A stretch of DNA of 54,281 nucleotides from positions 1 through 54,281 of the forward strand of contig NZ_JABRPL010000008.1 of NCBI RefSeq assembly GCF_013249015.1, in the 5' to 3' direction. Origin of the DNA: Rathayibacter agropyri. Its GTDB lineage: Bacteria; Actinomycetota; Actinomycetes; Actinomycetales; Microbacteriaceae. Below the pieces are notes generated by a model. It searched no databases. It was not told the origin of the DNA and worked only from the letters and a program-made list of their open reading frames with translations. Positions 37,412-44,584 of this stretch are shown here, one piece after another. The stretch's first letter is position 1; each line of letters starts with the position of its first letter. The translations under genes and the position numbers were made by a program.

Positions 37412-37581
37412 GGGTGACCCCCTCACGATGACAGGCCAGACGGATGGTGAGCCGGCTGGGGAAAAGAGCAGACAGGGAAAGTTCAAATCTACGCGGTAGT
37501 TTAGCAGACGGGGAACACGCCACCCCGGGCCACGGCCTGCCGGGCGGCCGTTCGTCCGTCCCCGACCGCGTCAGGAGCAGT

Positions 37582-38673
37582 GTGGACAGAGCACTCGAGG
37601 CGCGGCCCGTCGTGGTGATCGGTGCTGGCCAGGCGGGACTCTCGGTCGCCTACTACCTGCAGCGGCTGGGTCTTGTTCCGGGGCGTGACCTGGTGATCCT
37701 CGATCGTGGGCCGGAGCCGGGCGGCGCCTGGCAATTCCGCTGGGAAGCGCTCAGGCTCGGCTCGGCTCACCGCGTGCACGACCTCCCCGGCATGGAGCGC
37801 ATCGGCCTGTCGTTCGCCTCCGCGGATCGTCGGCGTCCGGCGCGGGATGTCGTCCGTGAGTACTACGGACGCTACGAGGAGGAGTTCGGCCTCGAGGTCC
37901 AGCGACCGGAGGCAGTCCGGCGTGTCACGAGTGCGTCATTCGGCGACACTGGCTCTCCGCTTGTCATCGAGACCGACCGCGCGACCGAGCGGGCGCGAGT
38001 GCTCGTGAATGCGACGGGCACGTGGGGATCGCCATTCGTGCCGTACTACTCCGGGCGCGACCGGTTCCGCGGGGTCCAGATCGACACCACCGAGTACGTG
38101 CGCGCGGCGGATTTTGCGGGACAGCAGGTGCTGGTCGTCGGCGGCGGCACCTCGGCGATCGGGTTCCTGCTCGAGCTCGAGCGGGTGGCGCGTTCGCTCA
38201 CGTGGGCGACGCGTCGCCCGGTGATCTACCGCGACGGAGAGCAGCTCGCGTTCGAGTCCGCGGTGGAGGCGGTCGCGGAGCAGGACCGCGCCGCTCGCGC
38301 GGGGATGCCCCTCCCGAGCATTGTCGGCGGCACGGGTGTGCAGCGTACCCGCCGCGTCGTCGCCGGGATCGAGCGCGGAGTGCTGCGCGAGCGCGGCATG
38401 TTCTCAGCGATCGAGGAGGACGGAGTGCGCTGGCCGGACGGCTCCTTCACCCGGGCTGACGCGATCATTTGGGCGACCGGCTTCCGGCCCGAACTGCGGC
38501 ACCTCGCCCCGCTCGGCCTGCGAGAGCGCGAGGGCGGGATCGCGGTCGTGGACGGTGCCTCCCTCACCGACCCCCGAGTATTCTTCGCCGGCTATGGACC
38601 GACGGCGTCGACGATCGGAGCCAACCGCTCAGGTCGGCGGATCGCCCGAGCGGTTATCACGCGACTGTCCTGA
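37582..38673 (+). CDS. Flavin-containing monooxygenase-like NAD(P)/FAD oxidoreductase
   Basis: GTG 37582 with AGGAG 4 nt upstream gives 363 residues. FAD binds at VVIGAGQAGLSVAYYL (G-x-G-x2-G at 14-19), NADPH at VLVVGGGTSAIGFLLEL, and the late ATG-like motif is IIWATGFRPEL. The length and pattern fit the FMO/CzcO-like group found with metal resistance or small-molecule oxidation, but substrate clues are absent. The longer frame to 37444 starts within non-coding sequence. It converges on the alpha/beta hydrolase. Confidence 0.88.
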   Translation: MDRALEARPVVVIGAGQAGLSVAYYLQRLGLVPGRDLVILDRGPEPGGAWQFRWEALRLGSAHRVHDLPGMERIGLSFASADRRRPARDVVREYYGRYEEEFGLEVQRPEAVRRVTSASFGDTGSPLVIETDRATERARVLVNATGTWGSPFVPYYSGRDRFRGVQIDTTEYVRAADFAGQQVLVVGGGTSAIGFLLELERVARSLTWATRRPVIYRDGEQLAFESAVEAVAEQDRAARAGMPLPSIVGGTGVQRTRRVVAGIERGVLRERGMFSAIEEDGVRWPDGSFTRADAIIWATGFRPELRHLAPLGLREREGGIAVVDGASLTDPRVFFAGYGPTASTIGANRSGRRIARAVITRLS

Positions 38674-40843: not shown

Positions 40844-42289
40844 ATGACGATCGGACGCCGCCTCTTCCTCTCGGGAGCCGTCTCGGGAGCCGGTCTCGTT
40901 GTGCTTGCCGGGTGCACGCCGTCGCGTCCGGCGCCGTCGCGCTCGGTGACCAAGGCGCCCGTGCCCACGGTGAGTACCTCCGCGGTTCCGCCGGCTGCCG
41001 CCTTCGTCCGCACCAGTTGGGGCACTGATCCCTACGCGCTCGGCTCCGTTTCCTTCCTCCCCGTCGGCGCGACTCCCGAGCACCGCAGCGACCTCGGCGC
41101 GGCCGTGCTCGACCGCCTCTTCTTCGCGGGGGAGGCGACCGATACCGTATCCCCCGGCACGCTCCAGGGGGCGTGGAATTCTGGAGTGCGGGCGGCGATC
41201 GAGATCACCGCCGTTGCCGACCCAGGCGAGCGGATCGCGATCGTCGGCGCTGGGCTCGCCGGAGCCGTCGCCGCCCGGCGCCTGCTCGACGCGGGCTTCG
41301 ACGTGACCGTCGTGGAGGCGCGCGATCGTACCGGTGGCCGAATCGCCACGTCGAGACCCGACGGCTGGCCGATCGCGGTCGAGGGCGGAGCCTGGGCACT
41401 CACCGGCGCCGGCGCGGCCCTGCGCGAGAGCGTCGCCGACGCGGGAGTCGTCATGACAGCGCTCGACCTGTCGAGTCATCGCGCGACCGACACGGACGGC
41501 GACGTCCTCGACACCGGATCCACCGCGGCCGACGCCCTCGCCCGCGCGCTGAGGTGGGGAGCGGAGCAGCCAGAGGACCTGTCCCTCGCCGAGTCGTTCG
41601 CCGGCTCCGGTGCCCCCAACCCGGCCGAAGCCGACTCAGGCGACGCTGCGCGGGTCGCCGCCTTCCTCGCGGGTGGTGCCGCCCTGCGCACCGGTGCCGC
41701 GGCCGAAGAGCTCTCGTCCTGGTATGGCCTGGGCGATGCCTCCGCCGACGCCGTCGTGACCGAGGACGCGGACGATGCCTCCACCGCACTGCTCACCGAC
41801 GGGCTCGCGCGGCTGATCGACACGCTGCTGACAGACGTCGCGGTCTCGCTGCGCGTCGCGGTCAGCGGGATCGGCTACACGGAGACCGGAACAAGCATCC
41901 GACTGGGCACGGGGGAGTCCTTCGCGGCGGACCGTGTCCTGGTGACCGTGCCGATCGGCGTGCTGAAGACGGACGCGGTCGCGTTCGATCCGCCGCTGCC
42001 CTTTGCGCACCGCGCGGCGATCGCCGCACTCGGCTCGGGAGTTGTCGACACGCTCTGGCTGCGCTTCGACGCGCCCTTCTGGGACACCGCGGCTCCCGCC
42101 CGCTGGTCGCTCGTGGGCTCCGAGGCGGGAATTACCGAATGGCTGAACCTTGAGCCGTCCACGGGCGCGGCGGTTCTCGTCGGGTTGGTCGGCGCGGACC
42201 AGGCGCTATCGATACAGGAGCTGAGCGACGACGAGCTGCTTACCCTCGCGCGGGCGGCGCTGGAGCCGTTCGCCGTCGTCCCCGGCTGA
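40844..42289 (+). CDS. Flavin amine oxidase lipoprotein with circularly permuted order
   Basis: ATG 40844, 7 nt after TAGGAT, gives 481 residues. A twin-arginine-type lipoprotein signal comes first (RRLFLSG, lipobox LAGC with C24). Residues 54-121 (TSWGTDPYALGSVSFLPVGA ... RLFFAGEATD ... GTLQGAWNSGVRAA) are what normally forms the C-terminal end of monoamine/polyamine oxidases. Only then comes the normal N-terminal FAD fold (IAIVGAGLAGAVAARRL, 135-140; EARDRTGGR) and the substrate domain. The protein stops at LEPFAVVPG, exactly where the missing end would begin. All parts of the family are therefore present in permuted order. It probably oxidises amines outside the membrane. Its 3' end overlaps the convergent gene by 50 bp. 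Confidence 0.85.
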   Translation: MTIGRRLFLSGAVSGAGLVVLAGCTPSRPAPSRSVTKAPVPTVSTSAVPPAAAFVRTSWGTDPYALGSVSFLPVGATPEHRSDLGAAVLDRLFFAGEATDTVSPGTLQGAWNSGVRAAIEITAVADPGERIAIVGAGLAGAVAARRLLDAGFDVTVVEARDRTGGRIATSRPDGWPIAVEGGAWALTGAGAALRESVADAGVVMTALDLSSHRATDTDGDVLDTGSTAADALARALRWGAEQPEDLSLAESFAGSGAPNPAEADSGDAARVAAFLAGGAALRTGAAAEELSSWYGLGDASADAVVTEDADDASTALLTDGLARLIDTLLTDVAVSLRVAVSGIGYTETGTSIRLGTGESFAADRVLVTVPIGVLKTDAVAFDPPLPFAHRAAIAALGSGVVDTLWLRFDAPFWDTAAPARWSLVGSEAGITEWLNLEPSTGAAVLVGLVGADQALSIQELSDDELLTLARAALEPFAVVPG

Positions 42290-42959
42290 CCACTTCGCGC
42301 AGGCTCGCCAGCGGGCCGTGCCAGTCCGGCGAGGGCTCGGCGCGGAGCGGTCGCACGCGCCCGAGCGCGAGGACGAACGCCGCCATGCCCGAGATCAGAG
42401 TCAGCACGATCACGTCGTACAGCACGAACATCGCCGGACCGTCGACCTGCGCCGGGTCGAGGAAGAAATACGGGTACCAGCCGATGAGGGCGCCCCGCGC
42501 CAGGGTGATGACGCCCCAGACAATCGGGAAGCCCAACACGGTGAGGGCTGCACGCCAGGAGACGGGACGCCGACCCGGCCCGAGGATCCAATCGAGGATC
42601 GCGGCGCTCGGGATGATGAAGTGCAGCAGTGCGCTCGACCAGGGCACATCCACGCGGATACCGCGGGCGTTCGACTCGACCGCGATGAGCGCGAAGACGA
42701 TTCCCGAGACGACCATGTAGGTGATGACCAGTGCCCGCGCGGTGCTGAGCCAGCGCGGCTCCCGCTCGCGCGCCAGGGTGAGCAACCCCGAGAGGCCGAG
42801 CACGATGACCCCGGCCATGTTCGACTGGGTCGTGAAGTAGGCGAAGAAGTTGTCGATCTGGAACGCCCGGAAGCCGAGCGTGTAGAAGAAGTCGCCGACG
42901 AGTCCGACCGCGCCGAGGCCGGCGAGGGTCAGGCGGAGGACCGCGAACGCCTTCCGCAC
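42240..42959 (-). CDS. Pr6Pr family membrane protein
   Basis: This 239-residue protein has six predicted membrane segments and the pattern of the Pr6Pr family: FQIDNFFAYFTTQSNMAGV near helix 2, HFIIPSAAILDWI with the conserved His/Pro, and YPYFFLDP. The C-terminal 35 residues are Arg/Pro-rich and cytosolic. It starts at GTG 42959 with CGGAGCGGG upstream. The last 50 bp overlap the 3' end of the amine oxidase on the other strand. Role unknown; the family is predicted to be transporters or sensors. Confidence 0.8.
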   Translation of the reverse strand: MRKAFAVLRLTLAGLGAVGLVGDFFYTLGFRAFQIDNFFAYFTTQSNMAGVIVLGLSGLLTLAREREPRWLSTARALVITYMVVSGIVFALIAVESNARGIRVDVPWSSALLHFIIPSAAILDWILGPGRRPVSWRAALTVLGFPIVWGVITLARGALIGWYPYFFLDPAQVDGPAMFVLYDVIVLTLISGMAAFVLALGRVRPLRAEPSPDWHGPLASLREVVSRGRRRTAPAPPARG

Positions 42960-44209: not shown

Positions 44210-44438
44210 GTCGCGAGCGGCATTAGCATCCCCGCTCGGTGGAGGACAAGCATCCGTCGCGAGGTGGATGTGTCGATGCGCAGTCCCCCGATAACGTCGG
44301 ACACGGCCCGTTGGGGCGGGCCGCCTTCGGGGGAAGGCACAAGGGGAAACCGGGGGCTCGCGGCACATGCCGCGGGCCCTCTACCCGTTCCGGGGGCCGC
44401 GCACCTCCGGCCCCGCACTGCTGCGCACTGCCGTCGAG
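44210..44438. other. Gene-free stretch downstream of DUF4184
   Basis: Together with 44487-44525 and 44566-44584 this makes up the 375-bp convergent interval before the KimA-like gene. I see no supported gene here. The notable content is the two palindromes listed separately and a small GCGGCA-TGCCGC dyad near 44361-44377. Confidence 0.5.
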
Positions 44439-44486
44439 TAGCCAAAAGTTGTCGCACTCGGCGCCGAGTGCGACAACTTTTGGCTA
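44439..44486. repeat. Perfect 48-bp palindrome, family B
   Basis: Two 24-bp arms meet without a spacer; the left arm starts TAGCCAAAAGTTGTCGCACT and ends CGGC. It shares AAGTTGTCGCACTCG with the next palindrome 40 bp away. It lies between convergent DUF4184 and KimA-like genes. Confidence 0.85.
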
Positions 44487-44525
44487 TTCGCGGGAGCGTG
44501 CGGACGACGGCGTCTTGCGAGTGTT

Positions 44526-44565
44526 CACAAGTTGTCGCACTCGAACTCGAGTGCGACAACTTGTG
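44526..44565. repeat. Perfect 40-bp palindrome, family B
   Basis: CACAAGTTGTCGCACTCGA (44526-44544) and its exact complement (44547-44565) flank AC. It begins 40 bp after the previous palindrome and ends 20 bp before the KimA-like stop, so it probably terminates that transcript. Confidence 0.85.
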
Positions 44566-44584
44566 GAGTGTCGCGCGCGGGGCG

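Follow-up and report, generated by a model that had tools for sequence, protein, structure and literature searches.

A circularly permuted flavin amine oxidase family protein, predicted to be a Tat lipoprotein, from Rathayibacter agropyri and its relatives

Introduction

Flavin amine oxidases of the Pfam family Amino_oxidase (PF01593) have a common linear order, with the FAD-binding strand first and the segment carrying the GEAT motif last. The window analysed here, a 54,281 nt stretch of Rathayibacter agropyri DNA, contains a forward-strand gene (40844..42289) for a protein of 481 residues, followed by a stop codon, in which this order is swapped. The locus therefore raises the question of whether the protein is a natural circular permutant of the family and, if so, how widely the permuted order is distributed, how often it arose and what such a protein might do. 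The original prediction, made from the sequence alone, proposed a clean permutation of an amine oxidase exported as a lipoprotein.

Domain order of the window protein

The protein is a flavin amine oxidase family member according to its translation, its PF01593 match and its alignment with LSD2. The Pfam scan gave 182.2 bits (cut-off 19.8), divided between two blocks of exchanged order: residues 138–474 correspond to profile positions 1–362, and residues 47–121 to positions 368–442 of 443. The match leaves out some five profile positions at the cut, together with the final one. When the two pieces were scanned apart, each still passed the cut-off alone, with E 4.1e-14 for residues 47–121 and E 2.8e-40 for residues 138–474. 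A phmmer search against solved structures aligned LSD2 (4gu0) in three swapped pieces, query residues 129–171, 315–473 and 47–123 falling on chain residues 337–379, 527–691 and 699–775, respectively. The last two pieces are separated by chain residues 692–698 alone. Query residues 172–314 lie outside the LSD2 alignment but inside the Pfam coverage.

The gene product can be divided into five parts, all on the forward strand. A predicted signal peptide (residues 1–24, 40844..40915) is followed by a linker rich in Pro, Ser and Thr (residues 25–46, 40916..40981), recognized in the translation and in alignment A1, which comprises 50 of the permuted proteins of the loci. Next comes the relocated C-terminal segment of the family (residues 47–121, 40982..41206), which runs from RTSWGTDPY through RLFFAGEATD to the final helix. 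The new junction, from the end of this segment to the FAD strand, occupies residues 122–137 (41207..41254). The FAD (Rossmann) domain and the substrate domain make up residues 138–474 (41255..42265).

The FAD-binding motifs GxGxxG, GGR and C-terminal GEAT are all present. In A1, GAG..G, GGR and FFAGEAT are invariant, as are several substrate-domain positions; FFAGEAT varies in more distant permuted proteins outside A1. Distant permuted proteins also score strongly on PF01593 (247 bits for L163 and 190 bits for L164). Every part of the family is present once, in rotated order, with the cut in one loop, and at the sequence level the window protein is a circular permutation. Since its order is swapped, we class it as a permuted variant and not as an ordinary member of PF01593. 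The swapped Pfam and LSD2 pieces bear out the proposal that the C-terminal segment stands ahead of the Rossmann motif, and nothing of the family is lost save the few profile positions mentioned above; the segment had been placed at residues 54–121, which is correct, the family match beginning earlier, at residue 47. The gene appears to be maintained, as its dN/dS is 0.18–0.29 against four Rathayibacter relatives.

Position of the cut and of the new junction

The permuted set consists of 118 reading frames (the window and 117 locus rows), of which 109 are distinct; nine permuted and three canonical rows were fetched twice. The relocated segment was not found a second time, in whole or in half, above 10 bits in any of these frames, in line with the clean permutation originally proposed. 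The FFAGE-type motif stands 35–40 residues ahead of the Rossmann start in every one of the 106 distinct permuted proteins measured, and exactly 37 in 92 of them; three further distinct proteins without a recognizable motif of this type fall outside the count.

In canonical rows (n = 44), 10–20 residues separate an anchor Leu of the last substrate-domain helix from the Trp of the segment. The C-terminus of the permuted proteins lies 4–12 residues beyond the same Leu in 104 of 115 rows, at it in one and further away in 10 (L059, L124 and L153 were left out of this measurement beforehand). Because the C-termini fall there, we place the cut in the loop between this helix and the Trp, with the old termini joined by a short link. 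A linker that hardly varies in length connects the old C-terminus to the old N-terminus, which is the first FAD strand. The new termini both belong to the loop that separates the last substrate-domain helix from the W-x-x-DP segment. Such a chain should adopt the usual fold of the FAD enzymes. The N-terminal segment could alternatively be domain-swapped and complete the fold of a neighbouring chain; a short, near-constant junction better suits closure within one chain, and we regard the swap as very unlikely.

Two loci, L156 and L158, were considered as intermediates carrying the segment at both ends. Their extra profile match covers the Ala-rich signal region and was read as a chance match.

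Some permuted copies appear to be broken or truncated: L059 lies in two frames, L058 meets a contig end, and G023, L124 and L153 have short frames. The L059 gene (4409–7084), from a Microbacterium genome, is divided between its two frames and represents either a broken gene or a sequencing error.

Distribution of the permuted order

A scan of species genomes with P0001 yielded 433 stretches and 301 relatives, of which the best-scoring 80 were kept. Among these best 80 of 301, 68 are whole and permuted, 10 are canonical (L067, L070, L071, L073 and L075–L080), one (L058) is cut by a contig end and one (L059) is the split gene; being drawn from the best-scoring relatives only, 68 of 80 is not a frequency. 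The permuted loci include Rathayibacter, Microbacterium, Cryobacterium, Naasia and uncultured Acidimicrobiia.

The two orders are told apart by A2, a junction profile of 148 positions. Its scores are bimodal, with spanning matches of 108–230 bits and listed half matches of at most 96 bits; where both halves stand in one frame behind such half matches, the order is canonical. In the group searches with A2, part of the first-look candidates was scored, and the genome counts are lower bounds. Spanning matches, each covering at least 136 of the 148 positions, were obtained in at least 100 of 299 genomes of the family of a Rathayibacter iranicus genome, in which sample G023 gave one partial match besides. 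Matches across the junction were also obtained in at least nine of 247 genomes of the class of an Acidimicrobiales genome (G499 among them is cut by a contig end), in at least 11 of 396 genomes of the R. iranicus phylum (eight already in the earlier samples) and in at least four of 349 genomes of the phylum of a Halomonas genome (Pseudomonadota). Around two of these four Pseudomonadota genomes, at least five of 186 genomes (order) and at least 18 of 188 (family) had spanning matches, with two repeats in each. The phylum samples of Gemmatimonadota (150 genomes) and Verrucomicrobiota (145 genomes) gave no spanning match at E up to 1e-22, with part of the candidates scored. The sampled genomes overlap partly with the 80 loci (nine identical pairs).

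No plasmid record covers 80% of the query at a single site, regardless of order (eight matched; 42 with L164). Among the 60 of 380 A2-matched PDB sequences listed, all have two stretches and none has its best stretch across the junction.

The original prediction allowed that relatives with the permuted order might exist and proposed counting the genomes that carry it; there are more than 100. For the window gene, nothing was found in favour of an artefact of sequencing, assembly or gene calling; single copies elsewhere, such as L059, are broken. The recurrence of the order in more than 100 sampled genomes, partly overlapping with the 68 permuted loci among the best 80, rules out chance and an assembly fault as its source, and with the low dN/dS it makes an artefact of any kind extremely improbable; assembly artefact was rejected on this ground.

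Phylogeny and number of origins

A first tree was built from 40 of the 118 permuted and 27 of the 44 canonical rows. Seven rows on long or unusual branches were then dropped, and the later trees and tests used 39 permuted and 21 canonical rows. The window protein lies inside an all-permuted clade of 24 rows with support of 100/99 in the tree of the shared FAD and substrate part. This clade consists of every tree row of the window's bacterial family together with three rows from the Acidimicrobiales-class sample. The other permuted rows are dispersed among canonical ones in the free trees.

The dispersion raises the possibility of repeated, independent permutation at the same loop, or of reversion, in place of a single origin. 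Eight, seven and six label changes are needed in the three free trees, and none of 200 bootstrap trees (0%) unites the permuted rows on one side. The starred branches alone require at least two changes in the second and third trees and one in the first. The permuted rows L164 and L166 group with the canonical rows L130 and L134 in all three trees (94/78, 95/89 and 97/88). Against this, a single permuted clade is not rejected by the AU test, either with the shared part (p 0.21) or with the segment added (p 0.0998), nor in the subset tests (p 0.238, 0.26, 0.153 and 0.148), and the cut lies in the same loop for most permuted proteins. We therefore treat repeated origin or reversion as a serious alternative, albeit the less probable one.

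Signal peptide and export

The N-terminal sequence MTIGRRLFLSGAVSGAGLVVLAGC, read from the translation, is a signal of the twin-arginine type, with the motif GRRLFL and the lipobox LAGC ending at Cys24; both arginines are invariant across the 50 rows of A1. This agrees with the twin-arginine lipoprotein signal originally predicted. When crude regular expressions were applied to the open frame ahead of the relocated segment, RR and lipobox patterns were found in 100 of the 109 distinct permuted proteins. L125 starts at a contig end, and the frame of L030 opens nine residues before the segment, no start codon being found. The permuted L163 and L165 have an RR motif without a lipobox; L164 and L166, whose true starts are uncertain, have no recognizable signal. 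The protein would probably be exported folded, with FAD bound, via the Tat route, and a lipid on Cys24 would probably tether it to the outer face of the cytoplasmic membrane.

A function for the permutation had been suggested, namely keeping the FAD-capping element close to the membrane anchor. This rationale is not supported, and is weakened by the permuted proteins with no recognizable signal (L164 and L166) or no lipobox (L163 and L165), by L127, and by canonical relatives that carry lipoprotein-like signals. L127 (841–2880) is a single frame in which a GNAT acetyltransferase domain (PF00583, 37 bits, cut-off 20.7) precedes the permuted oxidase. Among the distinct canonical rows, six of 41 have both RR and lipobox by the same crude expression, L138 being doubtful by eye; L128 and L155 have lipoprotein-like signals by eye.

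The flavin-N5 position

In amine oxidases, a lysine near the flavin N5 is the residue that activates O2. The alignment places a Thr in this column of the window protein. All 41 distinct canonical rows have the lysine, as do 29 of the 106 distinct permuted rows with a residue at this position (the permuted L059, L096 and L124 are gapped there). Most permuted Microbacteriaceae lack it: Rathayibacter, Microbacterium, Naasia and relatives have T, S, V, A, C, M or L. The lysine is kept in permuted Cryobacterium, in the Acidimicrobiia-type rows except L125 and in the Pseudomonadota rows, and the permuted order is therefore most likely older than its loss. All 19 rows of one subclade (support 98/87) are without it, which suggests a single loss after the permutation. 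An Arg occupies the position in three permuted rows, L107, L116 and L125. Neither the lysine loss nor the convergent neighbour described below figured in the original prediction.

The residue at N5 does not by itself predict the electron acceptor. The MAO A variants K305M and K305S still oxidize the amine, with kcat decreased 200-fold and 100-fold, and K305Q is fully active (PMC8009472). NicA2 is reported to be a dehydrogenase working with cytochrome c, though its enzyme class has the lysine (PMC12272882).

The GGSWLHG-type loop is also replaced in the window protein, by GGAWAL, which may mean that the site is altered further or is non-catalytic. A FAD-binding lipoprotein of Microbacteriaceae that has lost oxidase chemistry and acts in a non-catalytic, sensory or structural role, perhaps together with the Pr6Pr-family neighbour, would account for the loss of both the lysine and the loop, and the neighbour is conserved (49 of 62 loci, see below). 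The FAD motifs and several substrate-domain positions, which are invariant in A1, and the low dN/dS speak against such a role, which we hold to be unlikely.

The reading that we moderately favour is that of a natural permutant from the LSD1/polyamine-oxidase branch with the usual FAD fold, a Tat lipoprotein whose order predates the lysine loss. With a Thr in place of the O2-activating lysine, it would most likely act on an extracytoplasmic substrate as a dehydrogenase, or else as a slow oxidase, and hand the electrons to an acceptor other than O2.

Gene neighbourhood

The next gene (42240..42959, reverse strand) is convergent with the oxidase gene and encodes a Pr6Pr-family membrane protein (NF038065, 125.9 bits, cut-off 30). 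In the window the two genes share 50 nt at their 3' ends, tail to tail, and the same overlap is seen in the five Rathayibacter loci with both genes called. In 49 of the 62 loci with a called oxidase gene, a Pr6Pr gene directly follows it; the crude gene finder called no oxidase gene in the other seven of 69 loci. Convergent genes do not form an operon, a further point against the non-catalytic role discussed above. A full-text search found no paper on Pr6Pr. Among the seven window neighbours scanned, no electron acceptor was recognized, a cytochrome gene included. A combined scenario, in which the permutation occurred several times at the same loop and one Microbacteriaceae line that lost the lysine became a membrane-linked amine dehydrogenase working with the Pr6Pr protein, strikes us as rather far-fetched.

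Five of the eight Acidimicrobiia-type loci (L060, L065, L066, L068 and L072) have, upstream on the other strand, genes that belong to one carbon-nitrogen-hydrolase-like cluster, adjoining the oxidase directly or with other called frames between. In L068, the gene of this cluster and its neighbours match dihydropyrimidinase (552 bits, exceeding the cut-off of 393) and, with scores short of the cut-offs, N-carbamoylputrescine amidase (255.5 bits against 410) and aminotransferases (318 at best). These matches hint at amine or pyrimidine breakdown at the Acidimicrobiia-type loci, with no direct bearing on the window protein.

Two other features of the window were recorded. A forward-strand gene at 37444–38673 encodes an ArsO-like flavin monooxygenase, whose score of 263 bits stays under the curated cut-off of 425. 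At 44435–44575 there is a pair of nearly perfect palindromes, each about 58 nt long and with 78% similarity between them, that share the 14-mer AGTTGTCGCACTCG; there are four exact copies of it in the window, against 0.01 expected with at most one mismatch. Among 187 loci, the 14-mer is found only in that of R. iranicus, L001 (8600–8631), as one palindrome.

Comparison with known systems

Flavin amine oxidases, including MAO, LSD1, polyamine oxidases and L-amino-acid oxidases, are heavily studied, and a widespread natural permutation among them seems to have gone unremarked. It was perhaps overlooked because profile searches match both pieces whatever their order. Among the papers listed by full-text searches of open-licence PubMed Central, none has a title describing a natural permuted amine oxidase, in accordance with the statement in the original prediction that no description was known; the closest-worded of those listed concerns BorF, a flavin reductase. 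The permuted proteins offer a natural test of the tolerance of the FAD fold for new termini and a topology for engineering. One lineage probably gave up the O2-activating lysine when already permuted, and could be used to study the change from oxidase to dehydrogenase.

The best PDB sequence matches of the window protein are the amine oxidase domain of LSD1 and LSD2 and the polyamine and spermine oxidases. All conserved pieces of these PF01593 enzymes align, including the FAD motifs and the stretch from W-x-x-DP to FFAGEAT. The window protein differs from them in being permuted, in its lipoprotein signal and in having Thr for the N5 lysine. NicA2 has the canonical order. NicA2-type flavin amine dehydrogenases, with cytochrome c as acceptor, provide a precedent within the family for not using O2; a lysine near the flavin is discussed for this class, in contrast to the window protein (PMC12272882). 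Canonical bacterial relatives such as L128, L155, L067 and L076 share the motifs of the subfamily with the window protein, and some have Tat- or lipoprotein-like signals, but canonical relatives differ from it in keeping both the normal order and, in all 41 distinct rows, the lysine.
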